This document shows positions 1 through 22,063 of a DNA stretch of 64,000 nucleotides, one piece after another. A program made the translations under genes and the position numbers. Numbering within the stretch: position 1 is the stretch's first letter; every line of letters begins with the position of its first letter. The notes under the pieces are model-generated. The model made no database searches. It saw only the letters and a list, made by a program, of their open reading frames with translations, and had not been told where the DNA came from. The stretch covers positions 62,001-126,000 of the forward strand of contig CAUWAG010000014.1 in assembly GCA_963556695.1 (NCBI GenBank), in the 5' to 3' direction. This stretch comes from Anthostomella pinea (taxonomy: Eukaryota > Ascomycota > Sordariomycetes > Xylariales > Xylariaceae).

Positions 1-787
1 TCCACCCGAGACATCACAGAATATTGTTCTATAATTTCAAGAACTTGCCACAGCACACACTCCTGGAGTGACCGTCAAGTGGATTCTTGGACACAGAGAT
101 ATTGATGGTAACAAAGCTGCCAACATACTAGCAAAAAAGGGTGCCATGCTAGAAACAAACATAACAAATCTTTCTACAATCTCTTGGGTCAAGAGAGATC
201 TCAAAAGAAAGGGCAAGAAAGAGTTCAACCAATAATAAAAAGACCAATCAGAACCTAGATATCAAGAAGTATACTTATATATAATAACTAAAAGAGACCT
301 TATATCTTTTAAGAGGAGTACTTTACACAGATTTTTAGCAGCCAGATCTGGACATGGCGACTTTGCCAGATACTACGAACGCTTTGGGCATACAGACTCG
401 AATGATCATTACAGCTGTGGTGAGAAGAAAATACCACAATACGTTTTCTTTTGTAAGAGGCTGGGAAAAAACTGGCTGCTGCCCAGGTACTCGCCTAGGG
501 CAGCTTGTTTACAATACTTAGGGGAAAGGAGCACAGAATGGGCAAAATTTGTGGAGAAGAGCAAATTCTTTTCATTAATCTGCCCTCGATAAATAGCTGT
601 TCTTGAAGGACCAGATGGATGACCCAAGGTCATACCGCCGCAATAACGGGAATGGGCTCGTGAGCGGGACTGACTGTACTTATTTTCTTGATACCTCCAC
701 AACCCTGCGATGCAGAGGCTCTGGGAGGCGTGGTCTGCACTACTGAGGAGCTACCCCCCACGTTAAATACAAAACAAACACAACATT
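1..787 (+). mobile_element. Tad1-like LINE (copy A), 3' part: RNase H and 3' UTR
   Basis: This is the 3' end of a Tad1-type non-LTR retrotransposon that enters from outside the window. Read on the plus strand it encodes the C-terminal RNase H (HRDIDGNKAAN, then AKKGAM) and the conserved tail AARSGHGDFARYYERFGH, with a cysteine/histidine cluster near DHYSCGEKK. The frame ends at TAA 590-592. Two adjacent stops at about 232-237 replace the WW of the copy at 13.7-21 kb, which implies TGG to TAA changes and fits RIP. The 3' UTR (593 to about 770) contains the GGCTCTGGGAGGCGTGG block shared with the other copies and ends in an A/C-rich tail. It is an inactive relic. Confidence 0.9.
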
Positions 788-3400: not shown

Positions 3401-3660
3401 GAATGGGCAAAATTCGTGGAGAAGAGCAAGTTCTTTTCAACAATCTGCCCCCGATAGATAGCTTTTTCTGAAGGACCAGATGGATGACCCCAAGGTCATA
3501 CCGCCGCAACAACGGGGATGGGCCCGTGAGCGGGACTGACTGTACTTATTATCTTGAGACCTCCACAACCCTGCGATACAGAGGCTCTGGGAGGCGTGGT
3601 TTGCACTACTGAGGAGCTACCCCCCACGTTAAATACAATCAATCAATCAATCAATCAATC
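3401..3660 (+). mobile_element. 5'-truncated Tad1-like LINE (copy B)
   Basis: A 260-bp fragment that begins inside the last codons of the LINE ORF2 (GAATGGGCAAAATTCGTGG, matching copy A at 532-551). It continues through the complete 3' UTR and ends in a (CAAT)n tail of about six units. 5' truncation plus a simple-sequence tail is the signature of target-primed reverse transcription. Flanks at about 3384-3400 (ATTTTTACCGGCGTTG) and 3660-3677 (ATTTTACGGGCGCTGTTG) look like a diverged target-site duplication. Confidence 0.88.
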
Positions 3661-13530: not shown

Positions 13531-15775
13531 TGAAGTAGGCATGTGCGTCTGACCGTCGAAACTCCTCGCGGCCAGTTATGACGGTGCTAATATCTGCACG
13601 TGACCTGAAATGGGTTGACCTTCACGAGGAGTTTGTAAACAGGATTCCCTGGCGAAGTTTTGGGTCTCTGCAGGTCCGTTACTGTACGAACTTCAACATT
13701 ATGTAGGCAGGTATGATGATGATGATGATGATTGTATTTAACGTGGAGGCTCGCTCCTCAGTAGTGCAAACCACGCCTCCCAGAGCCTCTGCATCGCAGG
13801 GTTGTGGAGGTATCAAGATAATAAATACAGTCAGTCCCGCTCACGAGCCCATTCCCGTTGTTGCGGCGGTATGACTTTGGGGTCATCCATCTGGTCCTTC
13901 AAGAATAGCTATTTATCGGGGACAGATTGATGAGAAGAGCTTGCTCCTCTCCCCCAAGTACTGTAAACAGGCTGCCCTAGGCGAGTACCTGGGCAGCAGT
14001 CGGTTTTTCCCAAGCCTCTTGCAAAAGAAAATGTGTTGTGGTGTTTTCTTCTCACCACAGCTGCAGTGATCATTCAAGTCTGTATGCCCGAAACGTTCGT
14101 GGTATCCAGCAAAGTCGCCATGTCCAGACCTGGCCGCTAGAGGTCTGTGTAAAGTGCTCCTTTCAAAAGATATGAGGCTCCTCTTGGTTACTGTATATGA
14201 GTATATTTCTTGGTATTTAGGTTCTGATTGACCTTCCCACCATTGATCGAACTCTCTGTTGCCCATCTTCTTGAGATCTCTCTTTACCCAAGAGATTGTG
14301 GGAAGGTTCGTCGCTTCCGTTTCTAGCATGGCACCGTCTTTTGCTAGTACGTTAGCAGCTTCATTACCGTTGATATCTCTGTGTCCAGGGATCCACTTGA
14401 CGGTCACCCTAGGAGTATGTACTGTAGCGAGTTCTTGAAATCGTAGAAAAATGTTCTGTGATGTCTCGGGTGGAATCCCATTGAGTCCATCTACCACTGA
14501 TGTATTGTCCAGGCAGACATATAACTGTTTTCTGTGTCCAATTGTCCTGGCTGCTGCAAGCCCTTGGAGAGCGCCATAGACTTCAGCATCTATTACTTCT
14601 GTTTAGAAAAGTCTGCCCTTTCCCCGGTATACTTCTTGTATAGTGTTGTCTTTTCTGATGGTATAGCCCTATTTAGTGCGGGTTGTGCCTTTATCGTCCA
14701 ATTGTGATCCATCTGAGTAGATGAAAAGGTCAGTGTTCATATTTCTCTCTTGTAACCATTTCTTGAAGAGCTTTATTTTTTTGTCTTTATCTTTGCGGAT
14801 TAGGGATTTCTTTTATAATGGTTTGGTAAGTATTGGTCTCTAGAAGTCAGGGATTAACTGAAAGCTCCTTTAAAGCCTTATTGGTTCCTTGCGAGCTTGT
14901 ATTTAGAGCCTGCCAACAAGAGGGTGTCTTTGGTCTATTTATCCGAGTCGTAGGCCGTGACATCGTCTTATTGACTCTGCAAGAACTCCTGCTGGAGGAA
15001 TCTGTGATTCAAAGTATAGGATATGTCCAGGATATGTTTTCCAGACCGGCAGGATAGCCCCGATGGTTGTTCATAATACAGCGTCTATCGTTCCAAGAAG
15101 CCCCTTAATACGATATGCTGATGTCCCACCTGAGTTCCTGATTATTTTGGTTCCTGGGTACCAGGCCTCCAAGCCGTATGTAAGAATAGGAATAACACAA
15201 GCTTTCACAGCCCTCTTGGTCGACTTAACTGGGAGTCCTTTGACTGTGTTGCATAGTCTTCAGAGGTTATTTGCTACCTTATTAGCTTTCTTGGCCTAGT
15301 AGGAAACATGATCTTTGAAGTTTAGTTTCTATCCAAAAAGATACCTAGCCATCGCATGGAAACCTTGGCTGTTTTGTTCATTGTTCCGTGGCAGACTGGA
15401 GGGTTGTCTGAGTTTTTTTTTTTTTTATGAAGTGCATAATTTCAGTTTTGTTAGGGTCAAATTCAATAGCATTGTTATGTCCCTATTGATTGAGCAAGTG
15501 AAGATTTCCAGAAGCCTCTGTAGCTCTTTCCTTAAGGTTCTTTCCAATGCAGAGAGTTGCTAGGTTGTCTACATATCCAAAGCGTCTCTTTTTTCTATCA
15601 AGTCGGGCACAGATTGGCTCTGTATACAGCATATAAAGGATTGGAGAGGCTGGTGAGCCTTGTGGTAGCCTACAAGTGAGAGCTTTAATATCAGTCACAA
15701 TACCTTCAAATCGAACCCTTGCAGACCGCTCGAACATGAATGACTGGACCCATCTTATAAGGAAGCCTGGCCAGC

Positions 15776-15948
15776 TGTCAGATTTGAGCCAATCGTGAGG
15801 TTGAAGTGTGTGTGTGTATTCTGTGTGTCTGGAGTGTCCTTGTGCGATCGTGGCAGTTTTGTGCCAGAGGGGGCTGGATCGGGACGGAACAACTAGGGTC
15901 TGGTGTCTACCTATCAAGGTGACCTCTGTGCTCACCTTTAATCCAACA
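15776..15948 (-). repeat. Copia 3' LTR, 173 bp
   Basis: On the plus strand TGTCAGATTT ... ATCCAACA (TG...CA on both strands). It directly abuts the TSD copy at 15,771-15,775. It shares about 138 bp with the 5' LTR with roughly four differences. Confidence 0.9.
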
Positions 15949-16736
15949 CACGCCCTCAGCCAGGCAGGCAACGGCTCTGGCTGAACTAGTCTATAGAGTA
16001 AACTACCTCAGGGTCTTGACTCAGAATCTCTTCTCTCTTCCCAATGGCTCCCTTCTGTGACCTTAAATCAAGCTGCCTCGCCTGAATGTCTACCAATCCC
16101 AACTGATCCAGAAATCCTGCCCACCGTTGAGCCGGCAAGGCCTTGGTCAACCCATCCGCTTTCATCTGTGCTGAAGACGTATATTCGATGCTGACGGTTC
16201 CTTATTCCACTTCTTGTCGAAGCCAATGGTTGTGTATGTCTACATGCCGCAACTTGGTTTTTAAAAGGGCGATTTTGGCTGTCACTAGCTTAATTGTCTG
16301 TGTATTGTCACATTCCACTTTGATCTTCTCGCGTTTGAGTTGAACACTAAGTTCCGTAACCAGCCGGCTGATGTACAAAGTCTTTTTGACTGCCTGAGCC
16401 AGTGCGAGTAGTTCCGCTTCTGTAGTAGATGTAGTGACCGTGTCTTGCTTATTGGCCTTCCAGCCGATCAATCCTCCGAAAAGAGTCATGGCGAAAGCCT
16501 GAGAGCTCTTTCTGTCGAGAGAATTGTCGGCAAAGGAAGCATCATTAGCCACCACTAAATCGTCTCCTCCTCCAAACTGGAGAGAGTGGTGTCTTGTTCT
16601 GTATAGATATTGGATGACTCGGTCAGCGGCATTCTGATAGATCTGACTTGGGTTTGTCAGGAATCTTGCGAGGCGTGATGTTGCGAAGGCTATGTCTGGT
16701 CGTGTGGAAACGGAGGCATATAGAATGGAACCAATC

Positions 16737-16877
16737 TTGTGTGTGTATTCTGTGTGTCTGGAGTGTCCTTGTGCGACCGTGGCAGTTTTGTGCCAGAGGG
16801 GGCTGGATCGGGACGGAACAACTAGGTTTTGGTGTCTACCTATCAAGGTGCCCTCTGTGCTCACCTTTAATCCAACA
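16737..16877 (-). repeat. Copia 5' LTR, truncated at its 3' end
   Basis: Matches the LTR at 15,776-15,948 from its TGTTGGATTA end through the (CA)n stretch, then jumps straight into the RT/RNase H coding region. CCAATC occurs at both sides of the presumed breakpoint and may be the microhomology used for the internal deletion. Confidence 0.88.
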
Positions 16878-17821
16878 CCAGCCCTGTTCTCTCATGCGAA
16901 CCACCAGCCGTCCCATTAGGGCAGCGTAAAAGGCCCCTTTCACATCTGACGTGACTACTGTTGTAACGAGGCCTTGGTCGAGGCCCTGCTCAATATCGTG
17001 TATGAGTGCAGCTACCAAGTCAGTGGCAGAGCGCTTTGGTAGAGCTCTAAAATATTGTGGAGCTAGAATTCCAAGTTTAATAACAAAACAGGTAATTCTT
17101 TTTTTAATGAGTCATTTAAGGCCTTTGCCAAGACATGATAACAGTGATATTGGTCTTTAGGCCCTGGGATTGGAGTAGTCTTTCTTGCCTGGTTTTGGGA
17201 TCATCACTACCTCAGCTACTTTGAATGGTTTAGGGTGGTGTCCAATCTGTAGACAGGTCTGGAAAAGGGCTCTGATATATTCCCCAATGAATGGCCAGCA
17301 AGCTTTCAGAATCCGTATTGTGAGGGTATCTATTCCCGGGAGTTGCTCTTGGTCCCTAAAGTGCACCCTTCAGCCTCTTCCAGTCCAACATGGTATTCAA
17401 GGGGGATATATGGCTTGGGTTGTGTGATCTGAGCGGACCAGGGGTCGATGATATCGTTGTCTGAAGTACTTCGTTCAAGCGTGGCTGAGCGTAATGCATT
17501 TGCCTTGCTCTCTTGTGACTCGAATATTTGGTCTCCTATGATGATTGGAGGGGAACGCAATCCTGCTGATAACTTGTGCCAAGAGACGATTCTGTATAGG
17601 TCCTTTGGCTCAGTTGCTGAATTAATTAAAGTCTGCCAGTACTCTCTCCTAGCTTTCTGAACCACGCGGCAAAATTCCCGTCAGGCTGAATTCCGCCCTT
17701 CTTGGCTTGTAGTCTGTTTAGAAAGGGCCCTATATGTCTGAATAGCTGCTTTGTAGTCATCATTCCACCAAGCAGTGGGCCGAGATTAATGGGGCTTCTT
17801 GCCCACTGTCTTGATACAGCC

Positions 17822-17913
17822 GGCCGTATGGCGCAATGGTCAAATGCGCCTGGTTGTGTTCTCGTTTGTGCGGTGGGCGACGAGAACAAGTGGGTTCGAA
17901 TCCTGCTATGGCC
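17822..17913 (+). promoter_or_regulatory. tRNA-like head of the SINE (RNA polymerase III A and B boxes)
   Basis: The acceptor stem GGCCGTA/TATGGCC pairs over 7 bp (one G-T). The D arm is GCGC-AATGGTCAAAT-GCGC. A long variable-type hairpin GTTCTCGT/ACGAGAAC follows, then a T arm around GGTTCGAATCC. The A box TGGCGCAATGG is at 17,829-17,839 and the B box at 17,893-17,903; both fit the polymerase III consensus. The large extra arm suggests a class II (Ser/Leu-type) tRNA ancestor. It is not annotated as a tRNA gene because it is followed by SINE sequence and flanked by a TSD. Confidence 0.85.
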
Positions 17914-18389
17914 CCCTTTCTGACCCGGCTTGTGCGAGTCGATAACCAGCACACGACAGTGGAGAGGCCCCATTTTATCGCAGAGCCCGATAGCCAAGCA
18001 GCTTGTCTCCACAATACCCACTCCTGCGAGGTTTTCCCCCTTGTGGTTTCCCTCGCCAGCAGATAACAAACACCTACTCCACCCACCAATGCGACATATA
18101 TCGAACGGCTACTGGAACGATATGTACACCAGAGAACTGAGGTTCACTGGGTCGCTTTGTCACTAGATAGGAGGTTTTTCTGACGGAATCGTGCTTGGGT
18201 ATTGACTAAAACCATCTGAACACTCCAGATTGGTACCGCTACAGCGAGGATAGGCTCGTGCGCGGATCTGAATGTATCTAATTTGACACCTCTACAACCT
18301 TGCGATGCAATGGCTCTGGGAGGCGTGGTTTGCACTACTGAGGAGCTACCCCCCACGTTAAATACAAAACAAACAAACAAACAACAAAC
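17822..18389 (+). mobile_element. tRNA-headed SINE with LINE-type 3' tail
   Basis: A 568-bp insertion in the LINE endonuclease/RT linker, flanked by a perfect 14-bp target duplication GTCTTGATACAGCC (17,808-17,821 and 18,390-18,403; the last base is shared-ambiguous). The 5' 92 nt form a tRNA-like structure with A and B boxes. The central 330 bp match nothing else in the window. The 3' ~140 bp (18,248 onward) align with the 3' UTR of the Tad1-like LINE (GGCTCTGGGAGGCGTGG, GAGGAGCTACCCCCCACG) and end in an (AAAC)n tail. There is no protein frame. This is the architecture of a SINE mobilised by the LINE whose tail it carries. Confidence 0.92.
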
Positions 18390-19472
18390 GTCTTGATACA
18401 GCCTTGGATCATGTTGATCAAGCTTTGTGTAAAGGCATCTACCTGGCCAGGGGATACACCCAGCCGGGGGAGTTCATGGATCCTGGTTTGGACATTATCT
18501 GCCAGCACTTGTAGTTTATCGTCCGGTACTATCCAATAGTTAGCCTTAGGGACTCGGTCTAGATCTCCCTGAATTGGGACAACTATTTGTAATATCTCAT
18601 GATCTGAAGTGCACTGGAGTGCATCATTCACTGAGGCTTCGGCCATGGGGACATCTGAGAACACCAGATCTAGTACATTTCCGTCATCATGTGTTGGGAC
18701 ATCTGGTTCAGAAATCAGATCCAGTCCGTGGTCTGTCATAGTCTGTGCAAGTATGACACCACCATGATATCCTGGATTGCTCGAGTCCCAGGATGTGTCG
18801 TCAGCATTGAAATCTCCAGCTATAACGCAGCCAAAAGGTGGAGTCCATACTTCCAGAATATCATCCACTTCCTGTGGGTTGTCACATGGCCGATAGACAC
18901 TGGCAAATGTAATGCCTTATACCTTGACACAGGTGATGTCTCGTGTAACATAGAGCCAAAATTAATCCGCTTAAAAGGGTTTTCTCACATAGATGAGAGA
19001 TCTGGGCTGTGTACTATCGCTGTCCCAGGAATCTACTGAGGAGTATATATCGTAATTGGGGTGTGTCTTTACTCCTATTCTCTTGCCTGGTGGTATGCCA
19101 ACCCAGGGCTCTTACATCAGAATGATGTCTGCTTGTTCTCTTTTGTAATCAGTCAGGTTGATGGCTAACTCTGTAGGGCCTGCACTCTTTTGTCCTCTTG
19201 CTGCATTTATAGAATGGATGACTAGATGCCCGTGTCGATATGTTTTGTTTAATGTACCTAGCATTGACTGATAACAATGATGTCGGCATCTTTGGGATGA
19301 GCTGTATCTGTTGTGTCGATTTGTATTGTGGTGTTGTTGGAACAGGCTTGAACGATCAATCATAATACTCGAGTATGGGGTCAAGGTCATGATGTTGCTG
19401 ATGGTTGGATTGAGAGGAATCTAGCTGGACTCGAAGGTCTGGCCAAGTGCCCTCTCAATCCACTATCTTATC

Positions 19473-21042
19473 TTATCTAATCATACATATGGGTCCTGGT
19501 ATAGATGGTTTGCAGTCTGGAATCGCATGGATCCAACAGGTGTCTTTATTATTATTGTTAGGTATTGACCCAGCTTGGTTTCTGCCTGTTTTATTGAAGG
19601 CCCTGGATCTGACTCTTTCTCCAACCAGCCTTATTTCCTGGATTTGCTCCCATGTGTGCTTATGGATGATGTCTTTCACGACCTTGGGGCGTGCAGGGTA
19701 TTTGTCGAAGTTGGCAACATGAGGTCCTTTGCAGTTGACACACTTTGGGATTGGTTTTTTGCACTCCCCCTGGTGTACTGCGCTGGCGCAACGTGTACAT
19801 ACTTGCTTTTCATATCGGTAGTTCTTACCATGGTATCTGAAGCAGCTCGCACATTGGTGAACCTTGGGAAGTATTGAATGTGCCTTGAAGTCATTAAGTG
19901 AGCAAAAAGTGTGAATAGTTCCTTTGCTGCACGGGGCAGAGAGATCACCCATGTGGTTTCCGGATCAGAATCAACTGTGTTCTTTGAGAATATGCACTTT
20001 AAAGGTCTGTCATTCATTTGGGCTTCAACTTCATCAGTAACAACAATGTCAGTAATATCGATTGTCAACCCTTCTGCACTGATGACCTTTCTTAGGCATC
20101 CATTGAACTTGTAGTGATGCCAGACCGTGTGGGTCTCAATCTTTTCTGCCTTAAGAATGTCAGTGATTTCTTCTTAGAAGGCCAGGAGCTTAGCCTGAGT
20201 TGGCTTGTCCCTTGGGTGTAAGGTAAATCCAGAGGGGCACCCGGTCACTTCTCTAAGCTCTTGAGGGTGGAGCTTAAGTCTTATATTCAGTATAGACTTT
20301 ATCCCATAAGGCTCTAAGTGGCTATTATCCATACAGATAAAGACCCAGAGATCCTCCTGTTTTTTCTTTAATTGGTTGGCAGCGATGAGGGCCCAGGTTG
20401 TGTTTTCTTCATAGTAGTGTTGACCATCTGTGGATGTTGTTGTTGGCTAAAGGAGACAGCTTGGGCAAAGGTCATGGTAGACTTCATTATCCCTATCCTC
20501 CTAGGAATGGTCTTCCTTATGGGTAAATCTCGGGTTTCCAGCCACTCGCTCAGGCATTTAGAGAAGAAAGCGCTGAACTCCTTGGCATGAAAGTATAGTT
20601 CGGTTCCAGCTTTCTTGAGTGTTTTGTCAACTACTGCAGCATACTTCTGAAACGTTGTCATCCTGGCTTCATAAAGGTGCTTGTCTTTAGCCAGTATCTT
20701 AGCAACTTGGTCCTGGCACTCTGAAGAGGAGGCTTTGCTCCCTACATCACATCCAATGGCTTGGTCTGCAGAGATTTCGTTCAATTGAGGTTGTTTCATT
20801 CCAGTGGTGCTGCCGTCATTGACATTTCGGGATTTTCCTTTCAGAGGGGAAACAACGGTGAAGTCAGCCTCAGAGACCTGTGACGGGCTGCTGCTGATGT
20901 CGTCAAGCAGCGCTTGGCAGAGCCTGCTCGGAGTTGCCGGGCCATATGTCTTTCTAGGGGCCGGGGATTTGAGCATGCCGCCAGTGGTCATCTTTGGGAC
21001 GGCCACGGGCGTGTTTGGGGGCCCGTTGTGGAAGGGTGCCAT
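19473..21042 (-). pseudogene. LINE ORF1 (gag-like, zinc knuckles)
   Basis: The first ATG in frame is at 21,042 (MAPFHNGPPNTPVAV). An N-terminal Ser/Pro-rich part is followed by a helical segment (LYEARMTTFQKYAAVVDKTL), a region typical of Tad1 ORF1 (EGLTIDITDIVVTDEVEAQM, TTWVISLPRAAKELF) and cysteine-rich knuckles (CASCFRYHG, CTRCASAVHQGEC, PKCVNCKGPH) read in different frames at 19,680-19,950. Several stops and at least one frame change separate the pieces. The first 230 residues are intact and GC-richer than the rest. Confidence 0.8.
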
Positions 21043-21249
21043 CCGGCTTGTGGAAAAAAAATTCTTATGTCTTGGCAAAGATAGTCAGTTATTGAAAGAA
21101 GTGCCTGCTTTAGCGCAGGAATCGAGGTTGCGCCCTAACAGCGGGGCGCCAAGAAAAATAGTTATTTTTGGCAAGTGTGTGTGCTTGACATCTGAACGAT
21201 CCGAACTCCCATTCCATTGTGTTGACTCCTTCACTTGTGGCGGTCGTGG

Positions 21250-21888
21250 ACGTTCGGCAGAGGTCGTACAGAAGTGTCTGGCGAAAAAGTCGGAGAGTGT
21301 GTCGACGTTGACTAACGTTGCCGGGCCGGATACTACAAGGACTCGCGAGCGCTGATCCATTGGCTGCGGGGCGGATCGGATACGGTTCAATCTTCCCGTC
21401 GGCACGTAGCCATTGACAATGAACGTTCTTCGCTGAATCTGGTCGAGTAGTTTATCGACCCCTTCTCAATGGAAGAAAACCAGCTTCGCGGCGCAAGTCT
21501 GGTGACCAAGGTTCACCTCTGGGGTGTTCACGAAGGTCGCGTAGATCTTCGCGGTGCCTCGGAAGCTTCCTAGCAACATGCCCACCGTGCAGTCAGGCGG
21601 CAAACCGGTTAGGAACAGAGAGGTGTTTACCTCGTCACTGACATTCGCAGAGTGGTTGGCGGGCAGTTGGAGGTTGCCGCGATAGTTGGCCCCCGGTTGC
21701 TTCGGTGTGACAGACATTGGAGCAGGCGCCGATTCGGGTGTCGATACTGGGGTTGGGGCCGGTGCGCGCTGTGTCATGTGGCCTCGCATGAATGAGCGTC
21801 TCGAAACGTTCTTCAATCCCGGGGGATGGAAGGACTCTGGGTCCTGGGGAGCCCAAAGGTCCGGGTGAAGTACGAGATTTATGCTCAT
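21250..21888 (-). pseudogene. RRM-like fungal protein, truncated and with a nonsense codon
   Basis: The minus-strand frame starts near 21,888 (MSINLVLHPDLW) with a Pro/Ser-rich N-terminus. It continues into NTSLFLTGLPPDCTVGMLLG and GTAKIYATFVNTPE ... CAAKLVFFH, resembling the RRM-type fold of a fungal family with SLWLTNLPP-like starts. A TGA directly after FFH (likely CGA originally) is followed in the same frame by EGVDKLLDQIQRRTFIVNGY and RLNRIRSAPQP. Similarity fades near DTLSDFFARHF, about 150 bp before the LINE. Interpretation: an RNA-binding-like accessory gene cut by the LINE and then mutated. Confidence 0.55.
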
Positions 21889-22063
21889 CGTGGCTGTTGG
21901 CTGGATTGGAATGGGGTGAGCGAAGGTTCAGGAACAGAGATACAGTGTGCCGAGGGGACGGAAAAACTTACTCTCGAAGGTCGAGACGTGGTGGGTTGGT
22001 TAGTGGCGTTGGGAGATGTTGCGGACGTGTTCACAGAATCCTTTCCGCCTTGTACAGCGATGC

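Follow-up and report, generated by a model that had tools for sequence, protein, structure and literature searches.

A young tRNA-related SINE family with a LINE-like 3' tail, seated in a putative Tad1-like LINE of a fungal genome

The DNA analysed here, referred to as the window, is a stretch of 64,000 nucleotides (contig C11, 62001-126000) from a source genome of 53.7 Mb in 16 contigs. One gene of the window has named relatives including Xylariaceae and Xylariales at 63-64% identity, with many others similarly identical, and an ITS stretch (L091) holds CTACCCTGTAG-like repeats, of a kind seen in Xylariaceae and their kin. At the centre of this study is a 568-bp element that interrupts a LINE copy on the opposite strand. 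Its parts, the LINE copy and further LINE 3' ends of the window are the following (percentages are identities; element positions count from the first base of the SINE):

638..785, + strand, LINE 3' end of the AAAC type (84.5% to element 415-558; read from the letters)
3504..3660, + strand, LINE 3' end of the AATC type (82.9% to element 415-563; read from the letters)
13732..13866, - strand, LINE 3' end of the host LINE copy, (ATC)n (83-84% to the SINE tail)
13732..21927, - strand, interrupted host LINE copy, limits approximate (Pfam EN_2, partial RVT_1 and RNase H; open frames; tail)
17808..17821, + strand, left target-site duplication GTCTTGATACAGCC (exact; two copies only in the window)
17822..18389, + strand, SINE, 568 bp (head places genome-wide and scored near-identical copies)
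17822..17914, + strand, tRNA-like head (ARAGORN; Rfam tRNA just below cut-off; fold)
17829..17839, + strand, A box TGGCGCAATGG, from element position 8 (match to the consensus)
17857..17888, + strand, long hairpin replacing a normal anticodon arm (minimum-energy fold, letters)
17893..17903, + strand, B box GGTTCGAATCC, from element position 72 (match to the consensus)
17914..18235, + strand, SINE body lacking homology to the LINE (rest of the window without a convincing match; a 44-mer at 213 genomic places)
18175..18179, + strand, internal TTTTT run at element position 354, possible Pol III terminator
18236..18365, + strand, LINE-derived tail, element 415-544 (aligned to 30 of 30 fetched LINE 3' ends)
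18366..18389, + strand, AAAC-type terminal repeat (letters; AAAC type in 30 of 30 fetched SINE copies)
18390..18403, + strand, right target-site duplication, exact GTCTTGATACAGCC

The host LINE is recognised by minus-strand frames that encode an endonuclease (PF14529, E 2.8e-16, above the cut-off), a partial reverse transcriptase (PF00078, E 1.1e-5, below the curated cut-off) and an RNase H (PF00075, E 4e-4, below the cut-off); five of the eight frames scanned gave nothing in Pfam at E 0.01. The SINE separates the endonuclease part from the reverse-transcriptase part. The 3' end of the LINE is near 13732 and consists of (ATC)n, and the upper limit, 21927, is the end of an open frame and not a proven 5' end. 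Its assignment to a Tad1-like clade is putative, the name being carried over from a preliminary description of the locus. Two further observations concern this region: a 148-bp direct repeat (96%; 15809-15956 and 16738-16885) brackets a stretch within the host LINE, and a minus-strand frame at 16202-16891 looks Copia-like by eye and has no match in Pfam.

A perfect 14-bp target-site duplication around a 568-bp element had been noticed before, and the letters bear this out: GTCTTGATACAGCC is exact at 17808-17821 and at 18390-18403, the insert between them measures 568 bp, and a third copy is absent from the window on either strand. Exact duplications of 11-17 bp were found around all 30 SINE copies fetched from the genome, 14 of them being exactly 14 bp long. 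In 23 copies the head follows the duplication directly; in six there are 1-2 extra bases in between, and in one, at locus L016, there are ten (before position 1501), which may reflect a transcript that began further upstream or the addition of bases. The duplication differs at each of the fetched sites, and the copies are spread over many contigs and both strands. With AAAC-type tails in all 30 copies, the variable duplications and tails expected of a SINE family are present. Homology extending past the borders, which had been named as evidence against a SINE, was not seen: the flanks of the 30 copies match one another in 13 cases, and no match pairs like sides in like orientation. The target sites have at most a weak compositional preference (A at -3 in 18 of 30), and the lack of A at -1 is a consequence of how the duplication was delimited.

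For a comparison with empty sites, the flanks of the 30 insertions were joined by script and then aligned to the fetched loci and the window. A paralogous stretch runs through the joined flanks of nine insertions (L001, L006, L007, L009, L011, L012, L016, L020 and L022). The joined flanks of the window SINE align to L011, L006 and L022 over 313 nt at 92-95% identity, and in part to L007; judged from these continuous alignments, GTCTTGATACAGCC is single in the three empty sites. Since other LINE copies keep the uninterrupted site, the SINE inserted into a pre-existing repeat, and the earlier view that it is seated within a LINE copy is borne out. Several of the 30 insertions (L001, L006, L007, L011, L012, L020, L022) are within apparent copies of one LINE family, at varied positions and in varied orientations.

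The element belongs to a real, recently active, young family of high copy number. The first 32 nt of the head occur at 264 genomic places with up to three mismatches (131 and 133 on the two strands), and the reversed control occurs at none; single-copy status, which would have spoken against a SINE, does not apply. In 29 of the 30 fetched copies the start is no more than 2 nt away from a common first base, so that the many copies starting at the tRNA-like head, as anticipated in the preliminary description, are indeed found. A 56-mer from the tail occurs at 320 places, a count to which LINE copies can also contribute. In a DNA search with the whole element the best 40 of 877 candidates were scored; all of them begin at element position 1 or 2, extend to 556-568 and are 99-100% identical, a value that describes this best-scoring sample and not the family average. 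The 41st reported match was a LINE-like tail (86%). Over the first 540 alignment columns 25 of the 30 fetched copies, again a best-scoring sample, equal the majority sequence without a difference; the other five have 10 differences in total, six of which are C>T or G>A. A copy in L013 (2869-3426) is only 93.4% identical, and therefore the family also has older layers.

A tRNA-related head is supported, one that departs from a regular tRNA in its middle. ARAGORN reports a tRNA-like gene at 17822-17916 with the anticodon gtg, in a layout with a weak anticodon stem. The Rfam tRNA model aligns over 17822-17914 with 28.2 bits, just short of its cut-off of 29 (E 0.00097 for 631 bases searched), and a scan of the whole window at cut-off gave no Rfam match. 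A PreQ1 riboswitch match in the Rfam search (E 0.72) was taken as chance. The head folds slightly better than its shuffled versions (z -2.04; 6 of 200 shuffles fold equally well or better). In its minimum-energy fold, arms resembling the acceptor, D and T arms are accompanied by a single long hairpin in the position of the anticodon arm. The preliminary description had read a long hairpin in the variable region. With the hairpin of the minimum-energy fold in the anticodon position, and with an ARAGORN layout that needs a weak anticodon stem, a 'class II' tRNA head is not established. TGGCGCAATGG and GGTTCGAATCC are presumably the A and B boxes, as sequence matches to the consensus.

No parent tRNA could be named for the head: no clear one was present among 50 distinct tRNA-like sequences (from 30 loci and 17 short stretches), most of which are of mitochondrial type. 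In the Rfam tRNA search of the genome the best 63 of 2100 candidates were scored, and because most of the tRNAs recovered look mitochondrial, this nuclear set is far from complete. A D-arm pattern excluding the SINE itself was found at one genomic place, and that locus, L109, has TGGCGCAATGGT in common with the SINE; it may serve as a lead to the parent tRNA, its letters ending before the acceptor end. Near-identical clusters of mitochondrial-looking tRNA genes are located on the nuclear contigs C1, C2, C9, C13, C15 and C16 and are either mitochondrial insertions or assembly joins. One SINE copy (C4:470894) has a tRNA gene of the opposite strand (C4:470744-470828) as a neighbour, about 65 bases from its start; judged by the length of the fetched stretch, this gene is tRNA-Glu(ttc).

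Downstream of the head the SINE holds, besides TTTTT, two TTTT runs at 17973 and 18032 (element positions 152 and 211). The first run of at least four T after five nuclear tRNA genes is 4-5 long. Given such equally short runs behind nuclear tRNA genes, full-length transcription by Pol III is not assured, and judging from these letters it would be the weakest step of the mechanism proposed below.

The central part of the element had been called unique in the window, and nothing convincing contradicts this: the sole match of the body elsewhere is 17 nt long (E 0.36), and clear outside matches within the window are confined to element 415-563, which matches the LINE 3' ends at 638-785, 3504-3654 and 13732-13866 (83-84%). 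A 55-nt fragment at 820-874 is 82% identical to the tail as well. Element 415-544 aligns to the 3' ends of all 30 fetched LINE copies at 83.5-85.7% (one alignment starts at 417), which confirms the earlier observation of a LINE-like 3' part with an AAAC-type ending. The similarity is not evenly distributed. In the alignment to the L024 LINE copy the SINE tail has 57 identical columns among its last 60, as against 56 among the preceding 73. The idea that the SINE carries the tail of the very LINE it sits in needs a correction: the tail is that of this LINE family in its AAAC form, whereas the host copy itself ends in (ATC)n. The stringent type of 3' recognition via a stem-loop, invoked in the preliminary description, has no support from fold energy or covariation. 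Single folds of the tails have z values from -0.92 to 0.33, and 10 predicted pairs include none with a pair-keeping change on both sides in an 11-row alignment, whose very similar rows make this a weak test.

One LINE family carries three different terminal repeats (L031-L060, L024, L026; window 638-785, 3504-3660 and 13732-13866). The 30 fetched LINE copies end in (AATC)n in 18 cases and in (AAAC)n in 12. Neither these counts nor those of the SINE endings give genome proportions, the LINEs having been ranked by likeness to a copy with (AATC)n and the SINEs by likeness to one with AAAC. Outside the 30, (ATC)n is the ending of the host copy and of a copy in L026. An AAAC-type ending is also present in the older SINE copy of L013 and in a partial copy, L110. 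The L013 copy represents a second, older SINE subfamily, in which the last ~35 nt before the repeat are clearly different. This ending occurs at 175 genomic places, 100 of which were listed. Among the 64 listed places on C2-C7 an exact SINE head is found 423-549 bases upstream in 28 and none upstream in 36; the latter may be SINEs whose head is damaged or truncated, and for at least one of them (C6:30504) the SINE body is found 117 bases upstream. A LINE with this ending was absent from the best 40 of 873 and the best 40 of 864 candidates. It is tempting to speculate that the 3' end of the LINE/SINE system is a switchable address and that SINE lineages re-tail to follow successive LINE subfamilies. 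This idea is based on the variation of the LINE repeats (at least three), on the AAAC type of all SINEs seen, a type shared by the one readable member of the LINE subfamily with intact ORF2, and on the exchanged last ~35 nt of the second subfamily, for which no LINE counterpart was found; we regard it as tentative and rather improbable.

A working LINE partner in the same genome is plausible from its coding frames. With the RNase H end of the LINE as protein query, the best 150 of 687 candidates were scored. Open frames of 1,254-1,256 amino acids, with no stop in the match, contain 24 of these places, and three more lie in a frame of the same size with a stop inside the match. With a joined LINE probe, 33 of 40 places tie at exactly one score, a tie that suggests a burst of the LINE in very recent time. 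Fourteen of the 24 intact frames are directly upstream of one of these 33 equal-scoring 3' ends, and the one tied end that is readable (L024) has an AAAC-type repeat together with the GATGCA form also seen in the SINE. Intact frames upstream of tied 3' ends and a readable AAAC member mean that a candidate autonomous partner subfamily is present. The LINE copies themselves also have duplications. By a homology test the LINE 5' end is within the fetched piece in 17 of 30 loci, and in six of the 17 an exact duplication of 13-17 bp begins no more than 3 nt from it. L056 has a 14-bp repeat 18 nt off the 5' end, duplications reported at L050 and L059 look spurious, and no duplication of at least 11 nt was found at the rest of the 17.

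Altogether, it is very probable that the element is a young tRNA-related SINE that is copied in trans by a putative Tad1-like LINE by means of the common tail. The identification as a SINE and the reading of its 3' part as a LINE tail are supported by copy number, the common 5' end, the duplications, the empty sites and the common tail. According to this model, Pol III would transcribe the SINE from its internal A and B boxes, and a LINE protein would recognise the LINE-like 3' tail, as suggested by the common sequence and the literature on such pairs. The likeliest source of this protein would be the LINE subfamily with an intact ORF2 and an AAAC-type tail. The LINE endonuclease would then nick the target, and the SINE RNA would be copied there by target-primed reverse transcription, with which the observed duplications are consistent, and the AAAC repeat, whose length is variable, would change by slippage. 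Points against the model are the overall tail identity of 83.5-85.7%, the missing support for a 3' stem-loop, the T runs, a head below the Rfam cut-off and a parent tRNA that was not found.

Some of these points lead to other explanations. A different LINE, or relaxed recognition of the AAAC repeat alone, could move the SINE, and the common 130 bp would then be a historical remnant. The divergence of the tail (83.5-85.7%), the lack of a supported tail structure and the different end of the second SINE subfamily, shared by no LINE among the best 40 of 873 and the best 40 of 864 candidates, are in favour of this. However, the divergence lies mostly away from the end, with 57 identical columns among the last 60 and 56 among the 73 before, and terminal repeat and duplication lengths agree in SINE and LINE copies; we consider this explanation possible but unlikely.

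The internal TTTTT and TTTT runs, the abnormal anticodon region and a head just under the Rfam tRNA cut-off would also fit a non-coding RNA made by Pol II that has a tRNA-resembling 5' end and is mobilised through its LINE tail, the head then being a relic without promoter function. Such an origin is hard to reconcile with the matches to the A and B boxes, with a 5' end that coincides with the tRNA-like head (offset 0-2 nt in 29 of 30 copies and 10 in one) and with hundreds of copy places without a common upstream promoter, and it appears quite improbable. An ordinary tRNA pseudogene region that was duplicated segmentally or in tandem could explain the very high identity among the copies, but not their spread over many contigs and both strands, the different duplication at each fetched site and the paralogous sites without insert, and can be set aside almost with certainty.

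A class II tRNA head joined to a Tad1 tail had been described as a configuration not recognised among named fungal SINEs. A tRNA head with a Tad1 tail is not new, having precedents in Mg-SINE/MGL, SINE2-1_BG/Tad1-24_BG and AfuSINE2-1a (PMC3747384, PMC5063351). Mg-SINE with MgL/MGR583 and SINE2-1_BG with Tad1-24_BG are tabulated as SINE/LINE pairs (PMC3747384). Few fungal pairs of this kind (Mg-SINE, SINE2-1_BG, AfuSINE2-1a) are named in the cited papers. In the present genome a young SINE family of hundreds of copies occurs together with no fewer than 24 LINE places that have an intact ORF2 and with varied LINE repeats. This would open tail recognition by a fungal LINE to direct tests, and single SINE insertions could be markers within the species. 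A word search of the literature, as distinct from a sequence search, found no published description recognisable as the present family, which is likely to be undescribed so far.

Mg-SINE of Magnaporthe has a 3' end that resembles that of MGL and is used for priming reverse transcription, for which molecular mimicry was proposed (PMC2104539); it is 472 bp long with ca. 100 copies (PMC5063351), and the Mg-SINE paper is cited where common 3' ends are mentioned for Tad1 in fungi (PMC5135761). By description, the element studied here is like Mg-SINE in being a SINE of a filamentous ascomycete, with a putatively tRNA-derived head and a LINE-like 3' end, and differs from it in its larger number of copies, as counted by pattern, and in its AAAC-type tail. 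SINE2-1_BG of Blumeria graminis, likewise compared by description, is a tRNA-derived fungal SINE with a Tad1 LINE tail from a different fungus. AfuSINE2-1a of Aspergillus fumigatus, described along with other named fungal SINEs, has a 3' part like I-4_AO#LINE/Tad1, a putative tRNA-Arg origin, a 3' ACT repeat and a very low copy number (PMC5063351). It is alike in its tRNA-related head and Tad1-LINE-like 3' part; in contrast to its ACT repeat and very few copies, the repeat of the present element is of the AAAC type and its copies number in the hundreds. Foxy of Fusarium oxysporum, an active SINE family of ca. 160 copies (PMC5063351), is similar by description as an active fungal SINE family. 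The arrangement is already known from other fungi, and the present element is a clean, young example of it and probably a new family.
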